A DNA stretch of 49,121 nt from a virus. Positions 20,801-44,124 of this stretch are shown here, piece after piece. Location of the stretch: the IMG/VR virus record IMGVR_UViG_3300027833_000075, positions 1 to 49,121 of that record; one strand, written 5' to 3'. Under the pieces are notes generated by a model. It did no database searches and was not told the origin of the DNA. It worked only from the letters and a program-made list of their open reading frames with translations. Each line of letters starts with the position of its first letter. The stretch's first letter is position 1. A program made the translations under genes and the position numbers.

Positions 20801-23800
20801 GTACAGCAAATTCTATTGTAACTACATTCACAGTTGAGGACGCAAGTTTTAGTGCAAATGTAAGTTCAAGTGCTTTAAGTCTAGCAGTTAATAACGGATT
20901 AGTATTTACAACAGATATGGACACATCTACAATTGCAAATTTAGGTGTTGTTAAAATTAATAATGCAGGTTACTATTCAGGCGTATACAGAGTTGTTGGC
21001 AAAACAGCAAACTCAATAAGTGTTTATGGTGACTATGTTGAACCTACAAGTGTTGTACTCACAGTAGCCACAACAAGTGGAAGCACAGATACAACTATTG
21101 CTACATCAAATGTATTAATTTCTACAGGCATGTTAGTAAGCGGCACAGGTATTACTAGTGGTACAACAGTTACAGACATTACAGCAACTGGAGTAACATT
21201 ATCTCAAAATGCAACAGCAACTGGAACAGCAAGCCTTACATTCCAAGATAACATATTTGTTGATGCAACTATATTATCAGACCAAGTAGATGTTACATTA
21301 GTTGAAGCACATACACTTGCAACTGACGGCTCTGACACAATTGTAGATAAAGTTGTAAACATTGAAGAAATGGAACCAAACTATTATAACTGGGCATGGA
21401 AAGTAGAGTCTGTACCTAGCAACACAATTATACGTTTAGAAGGTTTTGCTTATGACCATCCATATGTAACTGGTGGTGTAAGATACGTTTCACAAAAAGA
21501 ATATAATATACATGGAGTAGATACTTTAGCAACAGATGGCGGTGAAGATTCTGAAGCATACCTAATTTCAAAACATGATGGTGATATCATAGTTAACGGA
21601 GCCAAAGTAGCTAATGCCTTCCCAATGCATACATCACAAGAATATGCTGATGAAATTAATAGGCAAGTGGCAATTAAAGCAGGCGCGATTATTCAATGTG
21701 ACTCAATGTACCTATCGTTAACTGGTATATCAAACAATCCTAGGATCCGTGGAAGACAGCATGTAATGAGAAATGGCAGAGGTACTAGAGGCGGCAGAGG
21801 CAGAGGTCAAATACCATTTAAGTCAGGCATGAAATTGCCTAACAATGTTTTTAATAACATAACAACACAAAATCCTATACCTGCTGTGGGCACACCATTT
21901 GTGCCGCAGACACCATCTCCGGCGTCAGTAGCATCTAGCGTGTTCGGAGGAGTCGTAAATAGTCTTATTAATGTAACAAACAATGTAAGGGCAGGCGGTA
22001 CAAATATTAAAGGCAACCCGGTACCAGCACCGGCAACACCACAACCTATACCAACAATTATTCCACCAACAGCAGTGGGACGAGGTATCACTGGACCTGG
22101 AGCGGGGCCAACGGCTTCCGGAACAACAGTTGTAGACTGGACACCGTTAATGACTATTACACAGCATGACGAACCATGTCCTCCTCCTCCACCAGTACCA
22201 CCAGCGCCACCGGTGCCGCCAGTAACATCCGTATTTGTAAACGAGATGAACTCGCAAGGCAGAGGTACAACAGAATCATTTAAATATAAGTTTGCTTCAG
22301 ATTCTAGTCAATCATACACAGTTAAAATACTGTTTGATATGTATAGTGCTAAAGACAGACTAACAGTATATCAGAGTAAATCTGCAGGGCAAAGAGGTAC
22401 TAAAATTGCAGGTACAGGTGTTTTAAGTACGTTGAGTAATATAACACAGGCAGATGTAAATGCATGGTCTAATGCTAAGTGGCAGATTTCCGCTGGCTTA
22501 ACACAATGGCAAAGGAATAATATAGGGCCCGGTAGCCTATTAGGTCAAAACTATACTTCACATGGCAACGGATTTGTAAAAGAAAACGGTAAAGTAACAT
22601 GGTCATATAATGCCTCTAAAGGTCAATACATAACTATTACGGTAGACAAAGATTCTAAAACTAGTACAGCATTTAGATATTACATGGAACATCCAGCAGA
22701 CGATAACAAAGGTGGTGGATATCCTGCGGCAGGCACTACAGGAATTGGATCTCCACCTCCAAACGGAAGCCAGGGTATAAAGTTTCCTAACTTGCCAAAC
22801 CAAACACAGGTACATGGCACACCGTTCTCATTACCTAATTTACAAAATATAGTATCATCAGGTGTCGGTGTTGGTTTCTTGAATATGGGAGGCAACTTCG
22901 GTCTCGGCGGAAGTGGAGGCGGCTTTGCTTCAGTTAATTTGAATTCATCTATGACGTACCCACTGAATCTTTCACCAGCTGGTGTCCCTTCATATAAACT
23001 TCCTGGATCAGCAAGTTATCCGCTTGGTAACCAACTATCTAATGTTGGCACAGGAACTAAGACAACAAATTCAGCAGGAACATCTTACATATCATTAACT
23101 GCATTAAAGAAAAATTCTACTAACGGCACAGTATCGCCTGTGTCAAAGCCAGTACATGTTCCAATATGTAAGCCTAAGGCTAGAGTTAAAGTTTGTGGAC
23201 AAACTAAAATGGTTGGTAAAGGCGATTCGTTCTTTGTTAACGGTGACAAGATAACATTAAGTGGAACTACTAACTTAGACGCAATTAAGAACGAAATACA
23301 AAGTCAATCAAAATCAGTTAATGTATCAATAACAGTAGATCCAGCAACAAAAGAAAAGTGTTTGATGATTGTTAACAAATTATCCGATCCAATGATACTT
23401 AGAAATGGTTGTGCTGGCGGCATATACAAAGAAGTGCTTGACTACTCTATTAAACAAGATAATCAAGTATGCTTTAGCAAAGAAACAGTAGCAGGTCCAA
23501 CAACGTTAACTAATGCGCCAAGTGGTGGCGGTAATGCTACTATTGTTGGAAGTAGTGTGGCATCATATACTACTAATACTATAACAGCAGATCAAAACAA
23601 ACAAGGGCTTGTTAAAAATAATATATGTATTACAGCAGGCACAGGATACAGTCCAGGTGACGTAGTAAGGGTTATGGGTGGCACACCTGTAGTTAGTCAA
23701 GGTACTAGTGGTATAATTGATCTTACTGTTAGCAATCCAGGTTACGGATATACAAATGCAAACGGCATTGCTACTCCATTAACAATTAAAATCGGACAAC

Positions 23801-26800
23801 GAGGAGAACCAGGATCAGGTGCAACAGTAGATTATAATTCAATTAGTTATGATTCAAATGGCGGCATACAAAAAATTAGTATATTACTAGAAGGTAGTGG
23901 ATATAGCATAGATAATCCTCCAACTGTGACAGTTAAAGGACAGGGTAGAGATGCAGTTATATCAGCAAGACTTAAAGAACAAGTTGCAGTTGAAAGACCT
24001 GCTAAGTTTATTATCACAGGTGTTGATGCTGACGGCGGCATAACTGATATACAAGTTATTGATAGAGGCATATACAAAATATTCCCAAGTGACTTAGACA
24101 GCGGTGTACCTATCCAATATGATATTAAGCGTTCGCAAACAGGTGCTAATCCAAATGAAGTATTAGGAACACTGGGCTCAGCAGGCGAAGGCTCAGGCGG
24201 TAGAGTATTCCTAACAGCAAGAGATATTCCTAGTTGTAATGAGAAAGGTAATGCGTTAAACGATTTAGGTTTACCTGAAGGAACAATTAACAGACGTTCT
24301 CCATTAGGTCAATTAGCAGATGATATCACTAGATGGTCACCTGTAGACGAATTTGGTAATCCTTTCTTTGGAGCCGAAGAGAAACAATACGGGCCAGACG
24401 GCAGAGAACTTAATCCAGATGACGGTGGCGCTGGCGGACTTTTACCAGGCACTACAGGACGTCCAGGTGGAGGTTTTGCAGGTAGTGGTGACGGCACAGG
24501 CGCTGACGGTGACGGTATCAATTTCACTGATGATCCGTTAATGTTTAGTGAACTTATTTTAGGTGGACCTGATATCGATGGTATAAGAATAGAGGATCCA
24601 TTGAACCCAGGACTATTGAACTCAATGGGTATAACTGACGGAGACTATGTATGCGGAGTACATCCAAACTTTGAAAACATTGATTCTACTGGAATTGATC
24701 CTCAATTGGATGTCACTGGAGCATTAATAGATACCACCACAGGACAACAAATAGGACGTGGCGGCGGCTACCAAGGCAACATGCCGTGGGCGCCAGGCTT
24801 TAACTTAGCAATGGGGTTAGGTAATGCTAGTACAATTGCTAACTTATATGAGTATGAACTTAGACAAGTAGACGGCACTAGTCCTGTAATATTTACTAAC
24901 GACAATCTTCTTAGACAAGATGTTAAGCCGTTACTATTAGAAAGTATGCGATTTGATACTGAATCAGGCTTAACATTATCAGGCATGAGCAACGTTTGGA
25001 TTGATAATTACGGTGGCAATGGCTGGGCATATATAGAAAATGGCACTGTTATTAGAAAGCAAGAGTCTATGACAGATATTGCATTCTTAGATGATGTAAT
25101 TACATATGATGCCGAGACTGCTGAAAAAGAATTTGATATTAATTTATATGATCCGTTCAAAGGTATTATACCAGGATTCATAGATAAAGATATTACATAT
25201 AAATCAGAACACGATCCAATTGTGTATGATCCAATGTATACTAAATTTGGTGCTGAGCAAGTAGGACAAACTTGGTGGGACACTAGTAGAGTTAGATACA
25301 ACTGGTATGAGCAAGGCACAGGATCATATGGACAGTTTGCTTACAACAACCAAGAAAGAAATAATAATTGGGGCTCTAAATTCCCTGGTAGTGAGATTAT
25401 AATTTACGAGTGGACTAAGAATTCTGTTCCACCCGAAGACTACAGCGGACAAGGTGTTGCTATAAATTCTAACCAGTTTGTACAAGAACAACACATTAAC
25501 CGTAAAGGCAAAACAATAACTTCTTATTACTATTGGGTTAGAGGGTTGGCAACTGTATCAAATGATGCTATGGCGAATTTAGGTAGAACTCATAGCACAC
25601 AAGAACTAGAACAATTGCTGGACAATCCAGAAGGAAATAGAATACCTTACTTTGCACTTGTTTCACCAGAAGCAATGACTATTAATAAGTTAGGCGATTT
25701 AATTAAAACAGAAGACTCTATTGTAAGTTTAAACTTTAGAAGAAAAGATTCAGGGTTAGCACAAAAGCATACCAGCTGGTCACTAGCAGGTGAAGGCGAT
25801 GCTAGTGCATCTATACCTGACAGTTTAAGTATTAAAGTTATAGACAGTTTAGCAGGATATAATGCTATAGACGAAGTGGTTCCAGTAGCAGGATTAAGTG
25901 CTGGCGAAAGATACGGATCATCGTTTAGACCTAGACAAACAATGTTTAAAGATATTAAAGCGGCTAGGAAGCAAATGTTCGAAACATTAAATGACATATT
26001 CTCAGAATTGCAAATGGACACAGTGTTTTTAGATTGGAGATACGGCTTGCCAGCGGCAACACCACATTTATTAACTACTAATTGGTTTAAGGTATTAAGA
26101 ACTAACAAGGTAAAGAATAATAAAATTTACTACAACGAAGACTATAAGCCACTTAGACGAGTTACATCTGAAAAGCAATTACAATTATTAGTAAACTTAT
26201 TAGATAAGAGTATTGTCCAAGTACAACAAGATAATGCATCTAAATATAAATTATTTGAATATTCTAAATCAGATAATACGTTTACACTAATTGCAATAGA
26301 AAATGAAACTGTACAATGGGACACTTCGGTGTACACTGAAAAGCAACAAATAGAACTTGGAAAAGAAATTAGACAAGTATTAAATCACTTGTATACTAAT
26401 GTGTTTGTTGGTTCACACAAACTATTTTGGAACAAGTTATTCTTTAGTATGGTCAAATATGCAATTGGCGAACAAGTAGAATTAAGTTGGGCATTTAAAT
26501 CAACATACTTGAATGTACAAAAACAAGAAACAGACTTAATACAATTTAAAGGTTTAAAAGTTGATAACTTTAGTAAAGCAGTAGATTACTTCAACGAAGT
26601 TAAGCCATACAGTAGTAAGATTAGAAACTACAGGGATATTAAACAAGCACCGATAGAAGTAATGACTGGCTCAACAGGCGACTTTGATAGGCCTCCGTAC
26701 TTCGACGAAGATTCATCTACTGTAAGAATATTAGACGCCAGTATTAGTACTGATGCAAATATACTTAATAGCGATCCGGCATACGCAGGATTTGTAAGTA

Positions 26801-28338
26801 GTAATGCACCTGTAAGACAGGTTAATACTAAAATTATATTTGACAGAGTAAATGCAGACTTGTTTGAAAATAGTTATGAAACACTTTCACAAACTGTAAC
26901 AGCAACATCTGACTTAACCGAAGTAGCATTTAACTTTATACCATACATTACTGATGCAAGTGACGTATCAAGTCTTACAGTTAAAGTCAATGATGTAATT
27001 GTGCCTAATGTTAGTACTAGTACGTTACTAAGTGGAGATCAGACTAGAACAATAGATGCTGATGGGAACGAGACTATACTAACCGGTGATGCAATAGTTA
27101 ACTGGACATACAATGTTGCTGATAACAAAGTAGTATTTAATAAAACGTACACAGATAATCCAACACTAGGTGGAATACAAGCAGGTGACGTTCTAACATT
27201 TGAATCAGTGTCTGGGTACAACCCAAGCAAAGAAACATTAAAACAGAGTGTTGCTAAGAACATTGTGGCAATTGAGTCAGAGGGTTTTGCTAGTTTAGGA
27301 AATACTTCATTGAACTGGAGAGCCGCTGACAGAGAGTTTAAGTTTAATACAGAAATTAGAACAGCGTTTATACATGCTATGGATTCTGCACACGGTGTAG
27401 GCACAGGAATTGATCCTATATACACAACTGATAAAGCTCTTATGACCAATATGGTAAATGATGGTAACCTAGACTATACATTAAGTTTAGTTAGGACTGC
27501 AATCGGTGGAGACTTTAAAGGTGAAATGCTAGATGCTAACGTGTTCACTGATATTGTTCCTGGAGAACATCCAACTACATACTACACTGATGCAAGAGGA
27601 TTTGACTTCTTTGCATGGGATGATGAAGTTTGGGATAAAGATGTTAGTGTTAAAAACTTCCACGGTGTGTTTAATCAAGACAGACAGGGCAATGTGAACT
27701 ACAGAATTAATAACGAAACTATATTTGGTTTTGATGCTGTAACATTTACTAAGTCTGGCTACGGACCAAATAGACCAGAAGAACTAGTTGTTGTGCAACC
27801 GTTTGAAACATTAGTTATGAATGTTTACACTAGTAACGTTTCGCATGGTAATGTAGCAATAGGAACAACAAGTTCTAAGCCAGTAAGACATACTGTGTTT
27901 ATGGATTTATTTGGAAGAACAGATTATTATAGAAGTTCTACTACAGGATTAACAACAGTTACAGAAGTAGTTAATTCTTGGGATACTTCAATTACAGTAG
28001 CAGATGATAGCGTGTTACCACAAGCGGCGGCAAGTAATAAAGGTGTTATATGGATTAACTCAGAAAGAATAGAGTACACAGGAGTTGATTCAGTAAATAA
28101 CAAGTTGCTAGGCATTATACGTGGTACTAGAGGTACAACAGTTAATCCAAGTATTGCAGTAGGCAGTAAAATATATAACGGTGAAGAGACAGAAAATATA
28201 GCACTGGAGAATTTCAGAGATCCACAAGACCTTAATTGGTTGGCATCAGACAGTAGTAGTTATATTACAACAAGTTTAAGTGATACATCGGGCGGTGTAG
28301 ACACAGATAGTATCGTAGGATTCATTCAAGGTACTTAA
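11821..28338 (+). CDS. Giant 5505-aa virion structural protein (gp7/gp8/gp10 position)
   Basis: This uninterrupted 5505-codon frame fills the place where T4 encodes gp7, gp8 and gp10, so a giant baseplate wedge or fibre scaffold is likely. Visible modules are: a helical-acidic N-terminus (1-150); three copies of a beta repeat with the core TGTGI/SGTGI (near 447-514, 2921-2989, 3081-3143); a YHYH-like domain (about 1381-1460, WHYN and GWAFDGNPIYGPYGYTD); PGYGY/GSGY beta-strand repeats (about 2234-2277 and 3937-4090); an Arg-Gly-rich patch (3308-3330); a Pro-rich hinge (3452-3469) followed by a beta-sandwich-like domain (3471-3627); a Gly/Asp-rich linker near 4200-4234; and a C-terminal hairpin repeat (about 5377-5444). 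AGGA lies 6 nt before the ATG. The exact T4 equivalence is inference. Confidence 0.75.
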   Translation: MADKQISKLPGQGQTTVLKNFFETTVEQLFSKSNIETISAYVGRKEPDQFDSSRDHYITEPDASRQKYSLEPAINTIDATTGRSTNILFYEDFVNQIKSYGVDTKNENVLFDTNFYSFLPPIDYDKLVNFQEYFWSPEGPNKLAISGTAQSTINILKDVIGKKEYTSPNGVTLKNGAVIEFEGTHVIPASYLNNRYIVEGVGESIVLYLKDQNFSAIFSTPAFTPWDEELITEETTLIATTIPSGSISASALLLEDNGTPRQYYDEFGEVVENEFFTSLADTDLNGNAYWTGYVTGADGFLSYMNTGLYGFDAEPWDGGNTQSTPDYMLMQRGAVDNNTWSRINFWHHKDRFIDSGTSLPSKNVRAKRPILEFNRNLELYNFGTTGLTFSADLSGADYTKAEIQGRPISAPLDSQGLKVANKIVLPDETTAISQYIYVVEDTQTQTLNGAVTSSTTIVLDNSQDVYPGARVTGTGISAGSNTLVDTVDTDTNTVILTTAETLADGVTLTFSNRVKLTRMPHDTNPVGAVDGDANFIPWTPTVGDTLPILFGNTHQGKEYYWTGTNWEVGQRKASVNTAPLFKAYDSKKRALDDDLLYPQSSFKGTPLFSYKTATTSTVNDSVLGFPLEYRNFNNFSEIVFENNMSSAVISYTPFGANATNFVKGYIYYKQSNTDGTITYDTAWRGHKDPFKQKVEDDYEVAQADIDNSRVHWEITAIPSDVNDIRVKVNGERRTDWTYNASLKTIQFNEFNLTKDATIRISTPTTTGLLEDKARHGRYELPIGWYANTNKDDILSVSEPQYLEHVKTYIEEQEFISGDALGDNNFVDLDDDKKLANKIVQTDDDLLMAGFLVSNDAFNIVDAIKFNGDEYLKYKNRFKKETKRYINTTDTTSMTNHAILEDVLQNVIAYNPGKLVFDYSYMLAIGDRYDEEIVVINNIVQKEYTLTNYLNLSNIENAIHVYDQDANGNDVLLLIDKDYTMTGTSGVCTLTFTTEYDLTLGSSIKIRFFNKNRESAQCPPTTAAMGITPVHIPTMMLDTSFADPINVIVGHDGSRTVADNDKQDEILLEFEKRVYNSVQQVYRSRPSYPDLNVHDVRPGAFRNTGIDRTAYYNILRENFNKFIARNEADFVVNEYYDADKPFSWNYNSGTTEPGYWRGIFEDCFDTARPHTHPWEMLGLVKKPTWWDSQYITTTYTNYGSNNKPMWTDIEDGIIRQGDNENLINSVYKTNNPYARIGLKAMLPVDENANLLAPANIASTSSTTKTISWVQTETGTATANATSFVGTTDGLHLNERTDGNTTYVNVTTNNILNHDIGTFPISNSTAFVEDKESKYAIKVTDDTTNGNYYIQANTTVATAFTGATTTGSTHKGIAVNGALVFNEDSGVAIDTSNNWHYNAMFRNEVGRDSAGGNPDTNNRYGYVQPSPQTVGLTEWDTSSHSPIVGWAFDGNPIYGPYGYTDRLDDTSAIKRLDSGYSLRTDSRDTIALGVGGMPTGEFIEDYVWDSSTGDLDPFNGRFMVTPEFPSGVWAYVATIDSAGAPAYPYTTGPKFRFAPTDLANNILGAGTFATAGTENYELVNTQTTTYTADTVSTANEWKFGDGAPVENAWKMSEQYPFALAEALFLTKPGKFASVFAEPEKIIRSTANSLQLLDSQTFKRYKVKDAVVHGNTAADNKTLLTNTGYTQFIDSYLRFNGIDTKTVFAEPFKTVNGKLGHKFAGFVDKDTMTVFSDSYSTTGDSSSLILPHEDIQVNIHVGPYATTNQYTGVMVELTEQGYYKVSGYSSTKRFFEIETANKEGKRTEVMVGGEAADFVQHSSTLQYVAGDIIKSGYNYFQAKSTVPLGTPVTDTGYYQRLPSLPMVNAAEATYYLEGTGITERVEYGTVYKNIGDVFEFLADLGRKQKALGYDFNDYDNSIGDVSDWIYAGKQFLFWSLGKWAAGNTLSLSPMARNIKFTAATGRISGIDESNKGQFSILDETGKKILPADCVIVRDSNTIEVSPPEGKQIFGIILHTNNIEHAMLVNNRTVFGDTIYDTVFGHRQKRLKIKGKRTANWTGSLMSEGYLITDNGLKPNYDTLAADIGRYNEVGYVPVERHVYEASRRQYGYNERKYLREFELVDDNQFDFYNGMIRDKGTKSSIEKLLNSDKVLVPGSIAVYDEWALKNGEFGDVENTQRLDIKVEDSEITSENQLIQIVYPEDVVSVISEVEVLGATTKFYSVPVLEIEGPPAEIPGSFAYGGGTTAEALVNLNTDGTIKDVVVTEPGYGYTINPSVTVVAAQLLTANITTYFSKPYAISNSYLDNSGTYSGNALTGISITDNFSANASSFIDLSSSSNISLVADAINLNANTNANVSATVLTISTSVATNYMLQIEGNDFTLSSANDAQKDDLVNKLKLDNSANIILDTGTKRFQPRQRYSFESANATTSSDVIVNVNGEAVDESGNWVFDSGSRTTITPTERTVAGSLTYTFAPMSGNGLSQTTLASGNIELENLQVINGNYPHIEVLVNGTLLSDALETDGTNGFQIDNIAGTDNATITFYDVTKLPGGELNENTPITVIERASIDFLPAYQGDLPGKGLNIKVKATDALAARLKQQRTLEITPDDLSDSTILIDVDDSERFIHRPTDMKSKNLWPVTKNVNFTGVTDSKYSPLPNAGYISSYNVGYQAMDLQDFTNLFDIESRPASKIPQENDVVHFAISEHDDFDAYKLVEPANSNVAYIKFNEDRGTSLLYTDVSLNQYANMNVLSDEANITNYYDNVIALKRDGIVMDDFFANIELANGEKAYDNTIMEVNSPVAYFLNEDQIIKNSITISGIGYKEPLRLLIDKIEPTVSGNVSAATYYVNTSETFALDANVGTGNTVDLTYTGTTSINDLEEGSYVTFTDASSGSLNGNTYKTSNVSVSPPTMATTLTGTTDTGVYSTTINGTVSSATTIVITATSTLISIGQIVSGTGIPADTKVTSIDSDGVTIGLDTTVSITSGTDVQFSKRTSNFSTANSIVTTFTVEDASFSANVSSSALSLAVNNGLVFTTDMDTSTIANLGVVKINNAGYYSGVYRVVGKTANSISVYGDYVEPTSVVLTVATTSGSTDTTIATSNVLISTGMLVSGTGITSGTTVTDITATGVTLSQNATATGTASLTFQDNIFVDATILSDQVDVTLVEAHTLATDGSDTIVDKVVNIEEMEPNYYNWAWKVESVPSNTIIRLEGFAYDHPYVTGGVRYVSQKEYNIHGVDTLATDGGEDSEAYLISKHDGDIIVNGAKVANAFPMHTSQEYADEINRQVAIKAGAIIQCDSMYLSLTGISNNPRIRGRQHVMRNGRGTRGGRGRGQIPFKSGMKLPNNVFNNITTQNPIPAVGTPFVPQTPSPASVASSVFGGVVNSLINVTNNVRAGGTNIKGNPVPAPATPQPIPTIIPPTAVGRGITGPGAGPTASGTTVVDWTPLMTITQHDEPCPPPPPVPPAPPVPPVTSVFVNEMNSQGRGTTESFKYKFASDSSQSYTVKILFDMYSAKDRLTVYQSKSAGQRGTKIAGTGVLSTLSNITQADVNAWSNAKWQISAGLTQWQRNNIGPGSLLGQNYTSHGNGFVKENGKVTWSYNASKGQYITITVDKDSKTSTAFRYYMEHPADDNKGGGYPAAGTTGIGSPPPNGSQGIKFPNLPNQTQVHGTPFSLPNLQNIVSSGVGVGFLNMGGNFGLGGSGGGFASVNLNSSMTYPLNLSPAGVPSYKLPGSASYPLGNQLSNVGTGTKTTNSAGTSYISLTALKKNSTNGTVSPVSKPVHVPICKPKARVKVCGQTKMVGKGDSFFVNGDKITLSGTTNLDAIKNEIQSQSKSVNVSITVDPATKEKCLMIVNKLSDPMILRNGCAGGIYKEVLDYSIKQDNQVCFSKETVAGPTTLTNAPSGGGNATIVGSSVASYTTNTITADQNKQGLVKNNICITAGTGYSPGDVVRVMGGTPVVSQGTSGIIDLTVSNPGYGYTNANGIATPLTIKIGQRGEPGSGATVDYNSISYDSNGGIQKISILLEGSGYSIDNPPTVTVKGQGRDAVISARLKEQVAVERPAKFIITGVDADGGITDIQVIDRGIYKIFPSDLDSGVPIQYDIKRSQTGANPNEVLGTLGSAGEGSGGRVFLTARDIPSCNEKGNALNDLGLPEGTINRRSPLGQLADDITRWSPVDEFGNPFFGAEEKQYGPDGRELNPDDGGAGGLLPGTTGRPGGGFAGSGDGTGADGDGINFTDDPLMFSELILGGPDIDGIRIEDPLNPGLLNSMGITDGDYVCGVHPNFENIDSTGIDPQLDVTGALIDTTTGQQIGRGGGYQGNMPWAPGFNLAMGLGNASTIANLYEYELRQVDGTSPVIFTNDNLLRQDVKPLLLESMRFDTESGLTLSGMSNVWIDNYGGNGWAYIENGTVIRKQESMTDIAFLDDVITYDAETAEKEFDINLYDPFKGIIPGFIDKDITYKSEHDPIVYDPMYTKFGAEQVGQTWWDTSRVRYNWYEQGTGSYGQFAYNNQERNNNWGSKFPGSEIIIYEWTKNSVPPEDYSGQGVAINSNQFVQEQHINRKGKTITSYYYWVRGLATVSNDAMANLGRTHSTQELEQLLDNPEGNRIPYFALVSPEAMTINKLGDLIKTEDSIVSLNFRRKDSGLAQKHTSWSLAGEGDASASIPDSLSIKVIDSLAGYNAIDEVVPVAGLSAGERYGSSFRPRQTMFKDIKAARKQMFETLNDIFSELQMDTVFLDWRYGLPAATPHLLTTNWFKVLRTNKVKNNKIYYNEDYKPLRRVTSEKQLQLLVNLLDKSIVQVQQDNASKYKLFEYSKSDNTFTLIAIENETVQWDTSVYTEKQQIELGKEIRQVLNHLYTNVFVGSHKLFWNKLFFSMVKYAIGEQVELSWAFKSTYLNVQKQETDLIQFKGLKVDNFSKAVDYFNEVKPYSSKIRNYRDIKQAPIEVMTGSTGDFDRPPYFDEDSSTVRILDASISTDANILNSDPAYAGFVSSNAPVRQVNTKIIFDRVNADLFENSYETLSQTVTATSDLTEVAFNFIPYITDASDVSSLTVKVNDVIVPNVSTSTLLSGDQTRTIDADGNETILTGDAIVNWTYNVADNKVVFNKTYTDNPTLGGIQAGDVLTFESVSGYNPSKETLKQSVAKNIVAIESEGFASLGNTSLNWRAADREFKFNTEIRTAFIHAMDSAHGVGTGIDPIYTTDKALMTNMVNDGNLDYTLSLVRTAIGGDFKGEMLDANVFTDIVPGEHPTTYYTDARGFDFFAWDDEVWDKDVSVKNFHGVFNQDRQGNVNYRINNETIFGFDAVTFTKSGYGPNRPEELVVVQPFETLVMNVYTSNVSHGNVAIGTTSSKPVRHTVFMDLFGRTDYYRSSTTGLTTVTEVVNSWDTSITVADDSVLPQAAASNKGVIWINSERIEYTGVDSVNNKLLGIIRGTRGTTVNPSIAVGSKIYNGEETENIALENFRDPQDLNWLASDSSSYITTSLSDTSGGVDTDSIVGFIQGT
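13159..13362 (+). repeat. Beta-repeat module, copy 1, in giant protein
   Basis: The encoded pattern is NGAVTSSTTIVLD, then VTGTGISAG, then VDTDTNTVILT, then GVTLTFSN. It is the first of three diverged protein-level repeats in the giant gene; phage fibre and tail proteins often carry this type. The DNA is diverged, so the copies are old. Confidence 0.65.
15961..16200 (+). other. YHYH-like domain segment in giant protein
   Basis: The encoded residues NNWHYNA and, about 40 residues later, HSPIVGWAFDGNPIYGPYGY match the hallmark pattern of the YHYH domain family. Its role in virions is not established. Confidence 0.6.
20581..20787 (+). repeat. Beta-repeat module, copy 2, in giant protein
   Basis: The encoded pattern is NGTVSSATTIVIT, then VSGTGIPADTKVTSID, then GVTIGLDTTVSITSGTDVQFS. 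It aligns with the modules at 13159 and 21061. Confidence 0.65.
21061..21249 (+). repeat. Beta-repeat module, copy 3, in giant protein
   Basis: The encoded pattern is TTSGSTDTTIATSN, then VSGTGITSGTTVTDIT, then GVTLSQNATATGTASLTF. It lies under 300 nt after copy 2, so copies 2 and 3 probably arose as a local duplication. Confidence 0.65.
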
Positions 28339-31182: not shown

Positions 31183-32229
31183 ATGGCAAGTGGAAGCACT
31201 TTATCAGTATCCGGTGGATACACAATGACCCAAGTGGTTGCTGGCGACACTATCGATGATGCAGATTACGACGGAATGAAAAACAATGTCTACAGGCAGT
31301 TAAGTACTCCTGCTGATTATACATTGGGAACATACACAGCAAGTTCAATATACGGATACAACCAGTCAATAGGATCGCTTGATGCGGCGGCTGGAGAATT
31401 GGTCAGAGCAAGTAGTACAGACAATGGATATAAAAATTTACAAGACGAGATTCAAGCGGTAGGTACATTCCTTGGCTTGTCATTAAACAGCACTAGTACT
31501 TCAGACGAAGTAGCAGGTGGATCTATAACAGCAACAGACTGGTCAAACTTAATGTCAGATGTTAAAAGTTGTTTTGATGGAAGATTTAGTGTACCAGGTG
31601 GAAGTTTAACTTCTGAAGCATTAATATCTAATTCAAGAACATCAGGCTGGGGCAGTTCAGGAACACCAGAAGTAACACATGAATTTTCAGTAAACTTCTC
31701 AAATGAAGCACATGCTAGAGCATTCTTTAATGCAGGCGGCGAAGTTAATTTTACTGCGGCACGTTCAGGCGGAACATCAGGTTCTTCAGCAGGAACAATT
31801 GGATCACAGAATGCTAACTGGACAGCATTATTAAGTGCGATGGGTACTTTAACATTTAATTTAAACAATGTAGTAAGTTCAGGTTCAACAGGAACAAGTG
31901 CTGGTAAAGGCTTTTACGAACTAACTACTTCATATCAACAAGTATACATCAAGTATGGTTCTAGTTCATATGCAAGTAACTACTATCAATTAGTTGCTAA
32001 AGTTAACAGTACTACTAACCCAACTGCGATAACATTCAAAGCAACATTTAGAGATGACCACGCACTAGGCGATGGTATTGGAGCAGATGGTGTAGACGGA
32101 AACGCAGATGATACAGTTGGATACGTTGACAGTGTAGACGGTACAGTTTCAAGTACTGCTACAACAAAACGTGCGAACAACGGTATAGCATTAGCACAAC
32201 CAAGCTCAACTGCAATTTCAAATTTATAA
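31183..32229 (+). CDS. Putative virion/fibre-associated structural protein
   Basis: This 348-aa protein is rich in Ser, Thr, Gly and Asn and has low charge, like a secreted or virion-surface beta protein. Residues 15-60 (VVAGDTIDDADYDGMKNNVYRQL) resemble the start of structural proteins found beside fibre genes in marine T4-like phages. Later segments alternate beta strands and short Gly/Ser loops (EFSVNFSNEAHARAFFNAGGEVNFTAARSGG, ~165-195). It has its own late promoter and ribosome site and is closed by a strong terminator, so it forms a single-gene late unit. Function beyond the virion is not evident. Confidence 0.6.
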   Translation: MASGSTLSVSGGYTMTQVVAGDTIDDADYDGMKNNVYRQLSTPADYTLGTYTASSIYGYNQSIGSLDAAAGELVRASSTDNGYKNLQDEIQAVGTFLGLSLNSTSTSDEVAGGSITATDWSNLMSDVKSCFDGRFSVPGGSLTSEALISNSRTSGWGSSGTPEVTHEFSVNFSNEAHARAFFNAGGEVNFTAARSGGTSGSSAGTIGSQNANWTALLSAMGTLTFNLNNVVSSGSTGTSAGKGFYELTTSYQQVYIKYGSSSYASNYYQLVAKVNSTTNPTAITFKATFRDDHALGDGIGADGVDGNADDTVGYVDSVDGTVSSTATTKRANNGIALAQPSSTAISNL

Positions 32230-32240
32230 TTTAAAATTAC

Positions 32241-32277
32241 AAAAAAAATAAGCCAGTTCTAGTAGCTGGCTTTTTTT
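32241..32277 (+). terminator. Rho-independent terminator T1
   Basis: AGCCAG (32251-32256) pairs with CTGGCT (32266-32271), followed by seven T (32271-32277). The A-run at 32241-32248 could pair with the T-run. It closes the structural block, and a nearly identical copy lies at 32771-32796. Confidence 0.9.
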
Positions 32278-32292
32278 ATGGCTATAAATATA
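32252..32292 (+). repeat. Terminator plus late-promoter unit, copy 1
   Basis: GCCAGTT-N7-CTGGC, T7, ATGGCT and ATAAATATA follow in a row. The same order recurs at 32771-32812, so the DUF805 gene is flanked by direct repeats of a composite regulatory element. Confidence 0.75.
32283..32290 (+). promoter_or_regulatory. Late promoter TATAAATA for the DUF805 gene
   Basis: This is a perfect T4 late consensus octamer, 6 nt after the T1 T-run and 44 nt before the ATG at 32327. Predicted +1 is 32296, giving a 31-nt leader with AAGGAA. Confidence 0.8.
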
Positions 32293-32326
32293 TCTGTATA
32301 ACACATTTTGTTGTACAAGGAAATAT

Positions 32327-32752
32327 ATGAATATAATAAATCATTTTATTGATACAATGAAGACGGTGTTGGTCACAAGAGCAACAGATATTAACGGAAG
32401 GTCAGATAGACCAGAGTACTGGTGGTTCACACTATACGCATGTATAGTATTTGGATTATTAGCAGTAGTAGATTACTATGTAATAGGATTTACATTCTGG
32501 AGTATGTTAGAACCATTCGGAGAGATGAAAGAGGCTGGAGTGCTAGTAGCACTATTCACACTAGGAACACTAGTGCAAAGTATAACACTAACTGCAAGAA
32601 GATTACATGACAGAGGTCGTAGTGGTTGGTGGCAGTTAATGTTAATAGTACCAGGATTAAACTTTATAGTATTCTATTGGTTAGTAAGAAGTGCTAAAGA
32701 TACACCTGAAGCAAAGAAATATAAAAACCCTTACGGTAAATTACCTAAGTAA
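32327..32752 (+). CDS. DUF805 inner-membrane protein (YhaH-like)
   Basis: This 141-aa protein is predicted to sit in the host inner membrane. The DUF805 hallmarks are clear: GRSDRPEYWWF (24-34) before the first membrane span (about 34-57), a second span (70-88), the loop ARRLHDRGRSGWW (90-102), and a third span (103-121). Length is normal for the bacterial family (about 110-150 aa). DUF805 has no established biochemical role. The gene has its own late promoter and sits between two near-identical terminators, so it is insulated from virion and accessory genes, as expected of an acquired 'moron'. A late-acting membrane protein could affect lysis, superinfection or envelope stress; none is shown. 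Confidence 0.88.
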   Translation: MNIINHFIDTMKTVLVTRATDINGRSDRPEYWWFTLYACIVFGLLAVVDYYVIGFTFWSMLEPFGEMKEAGVLVALFTLGTLVQSITLTARRLHDRGRSGWWQLMLIVPGLNFIVFYWLVRSAKDTPEAKKYKNPYGKLPK

Positions 32753-32770
32753 GTTTTAAGAACATTAGGG

Positions 32771-32796
32771 GCCAGTTATGATTACTGGCTTTTTTT
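32771..32796 (+). terminator. Rho-independent terminator T2
   Basis: GCCAGT (32771-32776) pairs perfectly with ACTGGC (32784-32789) across a 7-nt loop, followed by seven T (32790-32796). Stem, loop size and T-run match T1. Confidence 0.9.
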
Positions 32797-32802
32797 GTGG
32801 TT

Positions 32803-32810
32803 GATAAATA
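32803..32810 (+). promoter_or_regulatory. Late promoter GATAAATA, leaderless arrangement, start of accessory cluster
   Basis: The octamer begins 6 nt after terminator T2 and exactly 13 nt before the ATG at 32816. Read-through from upstream is blocked by T2, so translation of the next gene most likely relies on a leaderless message. Confidence 0.85.
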
Positions 32811-32815
32811 TAGAT

Positions 32816-33184
32816 ATGACTTCTAAACTAACTAAAGCATTAGAGTTTTCAAATTATAGATTAACTCTAAACATACAGCAAAATGCACTTCGATCCAAAG
32901 TGCAAACATTATTAAGTTACAGTACTAACGGAGGCACATTCGAGATATCTCAAATGCTTATTTCGTTTGTACAAACATTAATAACACAAGGACACAGTAA
33001 AGCAGTACTACTAGATGTGTATAATAACCCAGTCGAAATTGTCGGACTAGACGACTTCCTAGATGAAATTTTATCAAGATACTTTGAAGCAACAAACGAA
33101 TATCACGCAGAATATTCTAAGATAAAGAAAAGCAGAAAAGTACATAAGTTGGTAGATTTGGAACTCGATGACAACTCCAAGTAA
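32816..33184 (+). CDS. Conserved hypothetical protein of marine T4-like phages
   Basis: This 122-aa protein is helical and of unknown function. The central pattern FSNYRLTLNIQQNALRSKVQTLL, then GGTFEISQMLISFVQTLI, then KAVLLDVYNNPVEIVGLDDFLDEILSRYFEATNEYHAEY resembles a small protein frequent in marine T4-like phages. The start at 32816 is preferred over an in-frame start at 32795 because the latter lies in the T2 T-run and promoter. The gene overlaps the following glycosyltransferase by 17 nt. It is the first gene of the accessory cluster and is predicted to be read from a leaderless late mRNA. Confidence 0.65.
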   Translation: MTSKLTKALEFSNYRLTLNIQQNALRSKVQTLLSYSTNGGTFEISQMLISFVQTLITQGHSKAVLLDVYNNPVEIVGLDDFLDEILSRYFEATNEYHAEYSKIKKSRKVHKLVDLELDDNSK

Positions 33185-37054: not shown

Positions 37055-37696
37055 ATGGTTATTTTTATGATAGGTTCGTCAACTGCGTTCCCTCAAACTA
37101 TTGCAGAATATCTAGGTACTGCTGGACACGATATACACTTACTTGGCAGAGACACATTAGACTATACTAAGCCAGCCCAAATGGAAAAACATTTTAAAAC
37201 ACTTCCGTCTCCAGACATTGTAGTGTTTAATCAGCGGGTGGCAGGAGGCGAAGTCTCAAAGTACAGTCGTAACAATAAAGTTGATATGATGTACTTGGAC
37301 GACTTTGAAAAATTTAAAAGAATAAACGATCAAAATTTAACAGATTCATTCTACGGTAAACTTGCCATATACGACATATTGAAAGATTGTAAACAGTTTG
37401 TTTTTATATCTAGCTCTATAACGTTACACACTAAGGAATACGGATTTAGACATCTTTCATATAGATATCTTAGAGGAGCAGAACAACAACTAATGAAATG
37501 TATTGCATTAGAGCCAGGCAAAACAGCATACGGTTTATGCCCGGGTGGCATGGATGCAAACCCTGAGAAGTTTGCAATTGCAACTGCTAAAATTATCAAT
37601 AACGAACTAGAAGAAGAAGATTATGTATCATTGAACAGTAATGTTACATTAGTATCTTCAATACCACAATCCAAAGCCTTCCTTGACGAACAATGA
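37055..37696 (+). CDS. Atypical SDR-like Rossmann-fold protein
   Basis: This 213-aa protein looks like a short-chain dehydrogenase/reductase whose key motifs have drifted. The nucleotide loop reads GSSTAFPQTI (7-16) instead of TGxxxGxG; FVFISSSITLH (116-125) supplies the Ser region; the expected Tyr-x3-Lys is represented by Tyr136-x3-Arg140 (SYRYLRGAEQQLMK); and YGLCPGGMDA matches the PG region. It may be inactive, or use a different cofactor or chemistry. It begins 3 nt after the glycosyltransferase and overlaps the radical SAM gene by 4 nt. The canonical SDR at 41100 makes a useful comparison. Confidence 0.6.
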   Translation: MVIFMIGSSTAFPQTIAEYLGTAGHDIHLLGRDTLDYTKPAQMEKHFKTLPSPDIVVFNQRVAGGEVSKYSRNNKVDMMYLDDFEKFKRINDQNLTDSFYGKLAIYDILKDCKQFVFISSSITLHTKEYGFRHLSYRYLRGAEQQLMKCIALEPGKTAYGLCPGGMDANPEKFAIATAKIINNELEEEDYVSLNSNVTLVSSIPQSKAFLDEQ

Positions 37697-39330
37697 GTAT
37701 TTACGACCAAGCCGCAGACAAGGCAAAAGAGCAACTAGACACTATTAGTCCTAGCATGTGTTATGCTAAATGGAGCCAAGTGTCTATGCATTTAACAAAT
37801 GGTCAAACACACAGTTGTTACCATCCACCTACGCATTCGATACCACTAGATGAATTAAAAGATAATCCTACAGCACTACATAACACTAAAGAAAAGAAAG
37901 AACAACGTAGACAAATGCTTAAAGGCGAAAGACCTGATGGGTGTAGTTATTGTTGGGATATAGAAGACCAAGGTGACAGAAGTGACAGGGTATATCGCAG
38001 TGGCGAGTACTGGGCACAAGAAAGTAAAGAAGATATAATGGATGCCGGTGCTAGTGGCAACATCAATCCACGTTATGTAGAAGTAAACTTTAACCAAGCA
38101 TGTAACTTTAAATGTAGTTATTGCAGTCCACATTTAAGTACGGCATGGCAAGAAGAGATCGACGAGTTTGGGGAATATCCCACAACTGCTCCACATAATA
38201 ACATTGACAGTTTAGCATTAAAAAATTTAATGCCGTTAAAAGTAAAGCAAGATAATAATCCGTATGTTACAGCATTTTGGAAGTGGTGGCCCGAGATGTA
38301 TAAAACATTACGAGTGTTCCGTATGACAGGCGGTGAACCACTTATGGATAAAAACACATTCAAGGTACTTGACTATGTGTACGATAATCCGAATAAAGAT
38401 TTAGAGTTAAGTATAACAACAAACATGTGTCCTGTCAACGATGCATTGTTCGTAAAGTTTTTAGAAGCAGTTAAGAAGTTAGATAATGTACAGCATGGTG
38501 CTGAAGTATATGTTGCTGATCCGTTAGACGGCACAGAGTGGCAAACATGGGATCATGCAATTATAGGTGCAGATGCAAAACGTTATCACGATAGCGACCT
38601 AGCAGTAATAGAGCGAGAAGAAATACCGCAAACATTTATGCAAGTTGGACAATGCGAAGAGCAGGACAACAATAGTTTTACATACATTTATGAATATAAT
38701 GATAAAGCATATCATAACTTTAGTGTATTTTGTAGTCTAGATGGTTGGGGAGAACAAGCAGAGTATATGCGTAATGGCATGGACTTCGATACAGTATGGA
38801 GTAACTGTCATAGATTTTTAGATGAAACTAGATACACTAGTATAAATTTTATTAATACTTTTAACTGTTTAAGCATAACAAGTTTTAAAGAATTCCTGCA
38901 GGGAATACTAGAGCTTAGAGAAAAGTGGAGTAAAGAGAATCAGTATGCAATGGGTTGGGAAGTTCCTGAGCAACGTATATGGTTTGACATTCCTTTACTT
39001 AGAGCTCCTGCTTGGCAAAGTATACAAGTGTTACCAGGACAGTATCAAGAGTATATGCAAGAAGCAATACAGTTTATGGAAGAAAATAAAGCCAACGAGG
39101 AGTATGTAGACTACAAAGGATTTAAAGATTTTGAAATTGCAAAAGCAAAACGAAATCTAGATTTTATGAAATCTGTACTACCACAAGAAAAACTAATAAG
39201 AGACCGTGCAGATTTTTATAAGTTTTTTACAGAACACGACATACGAAGAGATACAAATTTCCTAGCCACGTTTCCAGAAATGCACGACTTCTGGTTTGTC
39301 TGTGAGGAGGCAGATGCATTAAATGGATAA
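37693..39330 (+). CDS. Radical SAM protein A with N-terminal Cys-rich (twitch-like) module
   Basis: This 545-aa protein should use a [4Fe-4S] cluster and SAM to make a 5'-deoxyadenosyl radical. The cluster motif is CNFKCSYC (Cys137, 141, 144, C-x3-C-x2-C), and the SAM-contacting GGEP is at 213-216. Before it lie Cys23, Cys42 (SCYHPP) and the pair Cys84/Cys87 (GCSYCW), arranged like an auxiliary-cluster twitch/SPASM module. That module is normally C-terminal but here precedes the barrel, as in phage 'N-terminal twitch' radical SAM proteins. It is paralogous to 42439, and a long insert (about 250-350) separates barrel halves. The substrate is unknown; glycan, peptide or metabolite modification are open. 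Confidence 0.8.
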   Translation: MSIYDQAADKAKEQLDTISPSMCYAKWSQVSMHLTNGQTHSCYHPPTHSIPLDELKDNPTALHNTKEKKEQRRQMLKGERPDGCSYCWDIEDQGDRSDRVYRSGEYWAQESKEDIMDAGASGNINPRYVEVNFNQACNFKCSYCSPHLSTAWQEEIDEFGEYPTTAPHNNIDSLALKNLMPLKVKQDNNPYVTAFWKWWPEMYKTLRVFRMTGGEPLMDKNTFKVLDYVYDNPNKDLELSITTNMCPVNDALFVKFLEAVKKLDNVQHGAEVYVADPLDGTEWQTWDHAIIGADAKRYHDSDLAVIEREEIPQTFMQVGQCEEQDNNSFTYIYEYNDKAYHNFSVFCSLDGWGEQAEYMRNGMDFDTVWSNCHRFLDETRYTSINFINTFNCLSITSFKEFLQGILELREKWSKENQYAMGWEVPEQRIWFDIPLLRAPAWQSIQVLPGQYQEYMQEAIQFMEENKANEEYVDYKGFKDFEIAKAKRNLDFMKSVLPQEKLIRDRADFYKFFTEHDIRRDTNFLATFPEMHDFWFVCEEADALNG

Positions 39331-41702: not shown

Positions 41703-42439
41703 AACCCTTCGACGAATATGAAAGGTTCTTTGCCTTTGGTTGTAGTGTGACAAATTATATATGGCCCACATGGGCAGATATTATTGCTACAGAAATACCT
41801 AACTATTTTAACTTTGCTAGATCCGGATCTGGTAATTTATTAATTGCTAATAGTGTAGTAGAGGCTAACGTAACATGGAAATTTACTGAAAAAGATTTAG
41901 TAATGGTTATGTGGAGTAGTCCTCAACGAGAGGATCGTTATAAGAATGGTCGTTGGGTGTCAACTGGTAATATATATAATCAAGATGTAATGGACGAGTC
42001 GTTTGTGACCGAGTGGGCAGACGAAAGATTTTATTTGATAAGAGACTTAGCATTAATCGAGTCTACTAGATCTTATCTAGACAACTTGCCTTGCGATTTT
42101 GAGATGTTAAGCATGGTCGACTTTTCTGATGATTCAAACCCGGACATAATAAATTTATACAGCGACACAATAAATAGTATTAAGCAAAGTATAAAAGAAG
42201 TTTCTTACAGTGGAACTTGGCCCGAAACATTTTTTAAAGAAAAAGGTGTGAACGGAGGACATTTAGATAATCATCCGAGACCATTGGGGCATCTTAAATA
42301 CTTGGAAAGTTTTTGCAATACAACGACAGCAATGACACGATATGCACAAACGCATGAAAGGAATCTTCTAGGATGCACTTATCTAGAGGATATAACGAAA
42401 CACTGGGTGCCTGAAGGATATAACGTAGAGAGATTATAA
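41699..42439 (+). CDS. SGNH/GDSL-like hydrolase
   Basis: This 246-aa protein resembles SGNH-family esterases, which often remove acetyl groups from sugars. Block I reads FAFGCSVTN with GCS (Ser16) where classic enzymes have GDS; SGSGN (42-46) supplies the Gly and Asn of blocks II/III; and LDNHPRPLGHLKYL (189-202) gives the C-terminal Asp190/His192 block. No signal peptide is seen. The start is a GTG that overlaps the SDR stop by 4 nt; no in-frame ATG is close. It overlaps the next radical SAM gene by 1 nt, which supports a shared pathway. Activity as O-acetyl or glycan esterase is inference. Confidence 0.7.
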   Translation: MKPFDEYERFFAFGCSVTNYIWPTWADIIATEIPNYFNFARSGSGNLLIANSVVEANVTWKFTEKDLVMVMWSSPQREDRYKNGRWVSTGNIYNQDVMDESFVTEWADERFYLIRDLALIESTRSYLDNLPCDFEMLSMVDFSDDSNPDIINLYSDTINSIKQSIKEVSYSGTWPETFFKEKGVNGGHLDNHPRPLGHLKYLESFCNTTTAMTRYAQTHERNLLGCTYLEDITKHWVPEGYNVERL

Positions 42440-44124
42440 TGGTAAGAAAAGTAGACGAGACTCACAGAGAATTTAAAGCAAGAATGATAGATCCAGTATC
42501 AGATTCTTTCTGTGGCGCCAAATGGTATAACGCCACAATATGGCTGGGACACGGCGGAACTACAAGTTGTCACCATCCCCCAGCACACCAAATTGATTTA
42601 GAAGACATTAAAGAAAATCCTAGTGCTATCCACAACAGTAGACACAAGAAGAAGATGCGTCAAATGATGCAGGAAGGTACACGACCTAAAGAATGTGAGT
42701 ACTGTTGGAAAATTGAAGACATGGGACAAGATGCAGATGGCAACGAGCCTGTATCTGATAGAGTATATAAAACAGTTATATACGAAGATAGAGATTTAGA
42801 ACATATTGCAGTATTAGATCCTAATGCCGATGTTAATTTAAAGACATGTGAAGTTGCGTTTGACAGGACATGTCAATTAGCATGTAGTTATTGTAACCCT
42901 GCGTTTAGTAGCACATGGGTAAAAGATATTAGAACTAACGGCGGTTATCAAGGTATTAAGAGTGATGCTAGAGGACACTTCATTGATGATGCACCATATG
43001 CCGAACCATTTGACCAAGGTGAAGCCAATCCGTACGTGGATGCTTTTTGGAGATGGTGGCCTGAACTAAGTAAAGAGTTAGAAGAGATTCGTGTTACTGG
43101 CGGCGAGCCATTAATGACTCCTAGCATATACAAACTGTTTGACTGGTTCAAAGAATCGGACGAGCCTAATGCAAAGAATATGCGTTTAGCAATTAACAGT
43201 AACTTAATGGCTAAGCCTGGATTACTAAACAAGTTTATTGATGCAACTCAACACATAAATCATTTCCATGTGTATACAAGTTGTGAAGCCTTTGGAGCCC
43301 AAGCAGAATATATCAGAGATGGGTTAGATTGGGAGATATGGACAGCACAGTTCGAACGTTTTGCCACAGAGGCAAGATACGAAGGTGTACACATGATGAT
43401 GACTATAAATGCATTATGCCTAGATACTATTTGTCAATTCTTAGATTGGACATTGTCTATGAAAAGAAAATACGGACATCACGTTCCAGGTATAAGTGTA
43501 AACATATTGCGTTTCCCTAGTTTCCAAAGTCCACTTACATTGCCAGATGATTTGCGTAAAATGTATCATGATGAACTTAGTGAATGGTTAGACGATGTTC
43601 GAAGCAAAGGCGAAAGAGATATGAATGGGGTCGAGTTACTCCAGGCATGGGAACAGGATCAAATTAGTAGGCTGATAGAATACTTAGACGTTGTTAAAAC
43701 TCCGCACAGGAATACAGCAGAGCAACATTTATTACATCACGACTTTAAAGTATTTTACGAACAGTATGACTCTAGGCGTGGATTCGATTTTAGAAAAACT
43801 TTCCCTAGACTAACAAACTGGTATGACAGCATAGACGTATTAGATATATCAGATGATACTGATATACAAGCACCAGATAGTGTAGGTGTAACTAATACAA
43901 TGTATGCTAAACGTATTGTTACAGAGGACGGCGAAGTTAAAGTAGTTGAAATGAAAGTACGTGGTAGACAGACCGGTGAGAGTCAAGACGATTATGATGA
44001 TGACAAATACGCTAATGAGATAGAAGGGACTAATCCAAATATCAAAAAACGTGCAGGTAGTAGTATCGGTTGGGACACCGACACAGACGGACTTGGCGGA
44101 GCAGTAGATGACGAAGTTTTATAA
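42439..44124 (+). CDS. Radical SAM protein B with N-terminal Cys-rich (twitch-like) module
   Basis: This 561-aa paralogue of the protein at 37693 has CQLACSYC (Cys145, 149, 152) for the [4Fe-4S] cluster and VTGGEPLM (219-226) for SAM. The N-terminal module carries Cys25, Cys44 (SCHHPP) and the Cys86/Cys89 pair (ECEYCW), matching protein A position for position, so an extra metal site is likely. It lacks the long insert of protein A and instead has an acidic C-terminal tail (about 500-561, VRGRQTGESQDDYDDD), possibly flexible. It is coupled to the SGNH-like gene upstream and overlaps the unknown gene downstream by 17 nt. The substrate is unknown. Confidence 0.8.
   Translation: MVRKVDETHREFKARMIDPVSDSFCGAKWYNATIWLGHGGTTSCHHPPAHQIDLEDIKENPSAIHNSRHKKKMRQMMQEGTRPKECEYCWKIEDMGQDADGNEPVSDRVYKTVIYEDRDLEHIAVLDPNADVNLKTCEVAFDRTCQLACSYCNPAFSSTWVKDIRTNGGYQGIKSDARGHFIDDAPYAEPFDQGEANPYVDAFWRWWPELSKELEEIRVTGGEPLMTPSIYKLFDWFKESDEPNAKNMRLAINSNLMAKPGLLNKFIDATQHINHFHVYTSCEAFGAQAEYIRDGLDWEIWTAQFERFATEARYEGVHMMMTINALCLDTICQFLDWTLSMKRKYGHHVPGISVNILRFPSFQSPLTLPDDLRKMYHDELSEWLDDVRSKGERDMNGVELLQAWEQDQISRLIEYLDVVKTPHRNTAEQHLLHHDFKVFYEQYDSRRGFDFRKTFPRLTNWYDSIDVLDISDDTDIQAPDSVGVTNTMYAKRIVTEDGEVKVVEMKVRGRQTGESQDDYDDDKYANEIEGTNPNIKKRAGSSIGWDTDTDGLGGAVDDEVL

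Follow-up and report, generated by a model that had tools for sequence, protein, structure and literature searches.

The window, that is, the whole stretch of DNA that was analysed (a 49 kb IMG/VR fragment of 49,121 nucleotides), contains two units on the + strand, at 32250-32292 and 32771-32812, which enclose a single gene encoding a DUF805 membrane protein (Table 1). Both units are built in the same order from a perfect stem (AAGCCAG..CTGGCTT in unit 1 and GCCAGT..ACTGGC in unit 2, with predicted folding energies of -13.0 and -11.7 kcal/mol, respectively), T7, RTGGYT and ATAAATATA. A repeat search returned a 30-nt direct repeat (32252-32281 and 32771-32800) with an identity of 80% and a spacing of 519. 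The preliminary description had placed two composite units around the DUF805 gene, and both are present with the sequence and at the coordinates that it gave: a scan of the whole window for a stem of at least 6, T6 and TAAATA within 18 nt found two composites on the + strand, compared with a mean of 0.003 and a maximum of 1 in 300 dinucleotide shuffles. The two units are also the only perfect-stem terminators on the + strand of the window, and a late promoter follows both. The order of the parts is the same in both units, as had been stated; the two terminators differ and are 70% alike. No Rfam family matched the region above gathering scores. The promoter of unit 2 looks like the resident promoter of an empty site.

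Table 1. Features of the locus and their positions in the window. Terminators and promoters are predictions; L302 and L241 are related contigs with and without DUF805 at this place.
Feature	Positions	Strand	Basis
UP, upstream neighbour, 348 aa, gene of the late structural region; left border of the slot	31183..32229	+	Open frame; position shared by homologs in empty relatives
Unit 1 terminator AAGCCAGTTCTAGTAGCTGGCTT, stem-loop and T-tract	32250..32277	+	Perfect stem; matches L302 at 26/27 nt
Unit 1 late promoter TATAAATATA, for DUF805	32283..32292	+	T4-type late motif, ATG 43 nt on
Cassette leader, AAGGA ribosome-binding site at 32317-32321	32293..32326	+	Promoter and leader match L302 at 48/50 nt
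Cargo gene DUF805, small membrane protein, 141 aa	32327..32752	+	PF05656; phrog_12855
Unit 2 terminator GGCCAGTTATGATTACTGGC and T7, predicted end of the DUF805 transcript	32770..32796	+	Matches L302 at 25/28 positions
Unit 2 late promoter GATAAATATA, for DN	32803..32812	+	L241, the nearest empty relative, has TTGACTGATAAATATAGCTATGACTTC at the same place
DN, downstream neighbour, 122 aa, no assigned function; right border of the slot	32816..33184	+	Open frame; family in hundreds of viral contigs

The enclosed gene belongs to PF05656 with an E-value of 1.4e-22 (80.7 bits against a Pfam gathering cut-off of 25.7), and its product, which has about three hydrophobic stretches, matches phrog_12855 (membrane protein/moron); the predicted structure has a pLDDT of 56. 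At the sensitivity used, relatives of this protein were not found in annotated phage genomes or GTDB contigs.

Of the ten ATAAATA sites on the + strand of the window, eight are followed after 12-54 nt by the ATG of a frame with 60 codons or more and a ninth (49041) falls at the window end, while none of the three sites on the - strand precedes such a frame, which makes a role of ATAAATA as a late promoter in the window credible. The late sigma factor was sought in long relatives of the lineage and not in the 49 kb fragment itself; a family of the gp55 type (phrog_12791, E 1e-85 or better) was present in all eight long relatives with this site. Both marks of a T4-type late promoter system are therefore found, namely NATAAATA 5' of late genes and a gp55 homolog in relatives. 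The activity of the terminators and promoters as such is predicted from sequence. Back-to-back late-type ATAAATA motifs on opposite strands at 798-815 might form a divergent late promoter. Elsewhere in the window, a single open frame of 5505 aa occupies 11821-28338 in the late structural region, a baseplate wedge protein is ~37% identical to those of large phages, e.g. PA5oct and SCTP-2, and the proteins at 37693-39330 and 42439-44124 both show weak matches to the radical SAM family.

Empty and filled states of the site in related phages

The window belongs to a group of uncultured marine T4-like phages. Relatives with the same UP and DN and without DUF805 (L241-L258 and others) have a gap of about 62-70 nt that holds one unit, for example AAAGCCAGTTCACAGTAACTGGCTTTTTTTTGACTGATAAATATAGCTATG in L241. 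Single-copy genomes lacking the gene, which the preliminary description had suggested looking for, thus exist with the same neighbours; the nearest, L241, is 96% identical to the window over 411 columns of DN and the adjacent protein. The content between two copies varies at this same place, which we call site 1. Two units surround DUF805 alleles at 64% (L216/L302) and 37% identity (L205/L271), a 53-aa ORF (L142/L291) and, at eight loci (L259, L263, L269, L270, L273, L275, L285 and L289), Ala/Pro-rich proteins of 59-72 aa with a lipobox-like start; some of the latter have a variant upstream promoter motif, e.g. TATAAGTAT. L290/L030 carry DUF805 (86%) and unit 2 on a contig that stops short of unit 1. 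In L266, L284 and L299, one unit is followed by larger genes, and DN stands behind a bare TAAATA. These three loci share a ~209-aa protein family, alone or with a ~390-aa gene, behind the one unit; the L266 member had no Pfam match. PADLOC reported nothing for the DUF805 or lipoprotein-like cargo.

The comparison of these contigs shows site 1 to be a cassette slot with empty and filled states and several cargo classes. It had been proposed that a single gene could be inserted here without disturbing its neighbours, and every two-unit insert does appear to keep the promoters and terminators of the neighbours intact. A homing endonuclease or another mobile element could in principle lie behind the insertions, such elements being common in T4-like phages (PMC2988022), but the inserts consist of the cargo gene and its signals only and the cargo is not nuclease-like, so we consider this origin very improbable.

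In a tree of DN and the next protein (48 rows), the window is sister to the empty L241, L302 to the empty L301, and L290 to the empty L287 and L292, the placement of L271 being without resolution; the lipoprotein-like loci form one clade. Parsimony requires at least four changes for DUF805 and nine for all states, and a single DUF805 clade was rejected (AU p 2.5e-50). Judged by this tree, DUF805 was gained separately several times, and four lineages carry it at site 1.

The GCCAG..CTGGC stem is conserved here among nearly all of the close relatives. Followed by T5, it occurs nowhere but at this site in the contigs that carry it (72-340 kb): a 340 kb contig has it at one place, and a 250 kb contig has two flanking copies. 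A single stray match lies in an outlier. A search of the genome and its relatives for the composite element thus confirms its recurrence at the same site but not a dispersal through the genome. Candidates of the form TTTTTT..TAAATA elsewhere in long relatives mostly look, by eye, like chance matches. Composites of another stem, a T-tract and a late motif were seen in L321, L323, L326 and L327 (G001, G003, G014) and are possible further slots.

A second site, a resolved joint and the exchange of alleles

At a second, unrelated place in other marine phages, which we call site 2, the units on either side of DUF805 have the stems GCAGAC..GTCTGC and GCCTC..GAGGC, and empty relatives (L343-L371) have the GCCTC..GAGGC unit only. 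Site 2 lies 3' of a ~136-aa gene, and two or more DUF805 alleles occupy it (L338/L011, L339, L409, L410); a search of 14 long site-1 relatives, whose contigs may be incomplete, did not find its downstream protein. The occupied L338 and the empty L365 are identical in 1892 of 1894 bases up to AATTAAAA, as far as the first base of the terminator stem, share the GC that opens both stems, and then diverge. Right of the unit the two are mostly 60-77% identical (about 72%), with 85% in the first 150 nt, and another empty contig, L371, is 94.5% identical to L338 over 237 nt on that side. By these comparisons, L338 is joined at the terminator. This is the only breakpoint resolved to the base, it comes from metagenome contigs, and L365 is a single contig; as the occupied form is found in three contigs from three samples, and a second allele in four further contigs, the occupied form is unlikely to be an artefact of assembly. 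The filled state of the window is known from one contig. L247 and L254, at site 1, have an identity of about 86-94% in the 600 nt to the left of the unit and of 71% to its right; left junctions at this site are blurred because the UP gene itself is variable.

The nucleotide identity of the window and L302 changes from segment to segment: 57% in the tail of UP, 96% in terminator 1, 96% in promoter and leader, 73% in DUF805 (90% in its last 90 nt), 89% in terminator 2 and 74% at the start of DN. The 5' frames are 94% identical within site 1 and 85% within site 2, with 52-57% across sites; for the DUF805 ORFs the same allele is 81% and 90% identical across sites, and identity within a site is 71% and 65%. 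As the frames follow the site while the ORFs cross sites, recombination is required, and these alignments show that DUF805 alleles have been swapped inside site-specific regulatory frames. The DUF805 genes of the window and L290 have the 86% identity given above despite DN proteins that are 58% identical, and the window allele is nearer to genes at other sites than to that of L302 at the same site. It could be argued that DUF805 is ancestral at site 1 and that recombination between the units on its two sides has removed it repeatedly. Four lineages have homologous frames at the same site, and deletion between flanking repeats is easy in principle; yet four gains stand against many losses in the parsimony count, and both allele relationships just described run counter to this history of gene loss only, which we rejected as quite improbable.

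With an identity of only 70%, the two terminators of the window show no sign of a duplication by recombination, and each is closer to its counterpart in L302 than to the other, which argues against a fresh duplication. Across the filled loci, flanking terminators of the same genome are 85.6% alike compared with 79.7% for permuted pairs (p 0.002), a difference that is indicative, as the lipoprotein genomes are related; in L263 and L269 the two are identical. Because the unit is bound to one site, exchange is likeliest between phages there and not between copies within a genome. The homologous recombination between units that had been proposed earlier thus has a counterpart in the one joint at a terminator stem, but the divergence of the copies in the window fits an exchange between phages better.

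A different explanation would be that genes enter by random illegitimate insertion, that the survivors are those lying between a terminator and the next promoter, and that the unit plays no part in the joining. The site-2 stems (incoming GCAGAC..GTCTGC, resident GCCTC..GAGGC) differ, so stem homology is not needed there, and DUF805 also occurs at many positions without a unit: its relatives occupy many unrelated genomic places and, outside the two sites, stand mostly in operons or behind a bare late promoter with no flanking terminator, so that what the unit marks is the slot, and DUF805 in general is not carried by it. Against random insertion, the first stem base is the exact position of the resolved joint, both terminators of site 1, incoming and resident, belong to a GCCAG family that is absent elsewhere in the 72-340 kb relatives, and flanking terminators of one genome are more alike than permuted ones, although the genomes are not fully independent. 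As only one joint is resolved to the base and the site-2 stems differ, we find this explanation unlikely, yet still to be reckoned with. Mere likeness of ordinary terminators and promoters under a shared functional constraint, with no exchange, would agree with the conservation of the GCCAG..CTGGC stem in nearly all close relatives, but it cannot yield empty and occupied sites, differing cargo and alleles that cross sites; contradicted by the allele-by-site comparison, the DN-based tree and the site-2 breakpoint, it was rejected, its probability being close to nil.

Proposed mechanism and relation to known systems

From these results, the locus is probably a slot for late-expressed gene cassettes, which co-infecting phages fill by recombining at the edges of terminators. 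When empty, as in the ancestor, it would hold one terminator that ends UP and a T4-type late promoter that starts DN. An incoming cassette would bring a late promoter, a leader, one gene and a terminator on one or both sides, and its joining at the edges of the resident terminator would give the order terminator-promoter-cargo-terminator-promoter. Every gene would then stay a separate late transcription unit, so a cargo gene could enter, leave or be exchanged with no read-through and with the neighbours still expressed; within a cassette, the ORF could itself be replaced by another allele. The exchange would most likely take place between co-infecting related phages by short-homology recombination, the homology being provided by the terminator and the conserved neighbours. 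Recombination of this kind is typical of T4-like replication, and at this site it was presumably driven by the phage. As DUF805 has hydrophobic stretches and the other common cargo looks like a lipoprotein, one may guess that both act at late times on the host envelope, for instance in the exclusion of superinfection or the tuning of lysis. More generally, marine T4-like phages might possess dedicated, site-bound docking units for insulated late cassettes of envelope proteins, exchanged across lineages with the hairpins as preferred crossovers and distinct from early PeSL shuffling, a generalisation to which we would give somewhat less than an even chance. A slot for late cargo in the structural region, with empty and filled forms and one joint resolved to the base, shows how late functions can be added gene by gene in lytic phages, its defined empty and filled sites make gene gain in phages testable by comparison, and small envelope proteins (DUF805, lipoprotein-like) are marked as traded late functions.

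PeSL elements carry an early promoter of the sigma-70 type and occur in many dispersed copies, dense clusters and hyperplastic regions, with mini-circles as the product of exchange between neighbouring elements. These promoter early stem-loops of T-even phages were reportedly described by Arbiol in 2010 and by Comeau in 2014. In the part of the literature that we consulted, they are presented as early-promoter composites that mediate shuffling in T4-like phages (PMC4503421). The likeness lies in a composite of terminator and promoter that borders the shuffling of single novel genes in T4-like phages, whereas the promoter here is late (ATAAATA, gp55) and not early sigma-70, and the units are bound to a site in the late structural region and not spread in dense dispersed clusters. 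The preliminary description had seen in the units a late-promoter counterpart of PeSLs: a stem-loop is indeed joined to a promoter, and gene indels and swaps occur at the element between similar phages, but the early sigma-70 promoter and the many dispersed copies are missing. The slot works on a principle like that of PeSLs, and promoter class and dispersal keep it from being one of them. We did not find a late-promoter counterpart of PeSLs described in the literature that we consulted, which does not prove that none has been.

In cyanophages, to the extent that the two accounts cover it, pstS has flanking promoters and terminators with 'no single regulatory solution', and both pstS and the g15-g18 region resemble our case in accessory genes with their own signals and a variable region in the structural module; a common composite unit or base-level pairs of empty and occupied sites were not found in these accounts (PMC3037559, PMC2984593). 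Accessory genes of T4-like phages were previously tied to early transcription: according to Nolan 2006, late promoters precede conserved late genes only, and novel ORFs lie with early genes and are mostly not moron-like (PMC1524935). Variable genes are lodged among conserved ones there too, but the novel cargo described here carries late promoters. With the morons of lambdoid phages, whose G+C content is unlike that of the phage (PMC1524935), the cassettes share the design of one ORF, equipped with a promoter and a terminator of its own, that separates genes which are neighbours in relatives; they differ in their lytic T4-like late transcription, in a resident slot with a pre-existing unit, and in related frames and several cargo types at one place. 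We would class the slot as a variant of the PeSL/moron idea that has a late promoter and is bound to its site.
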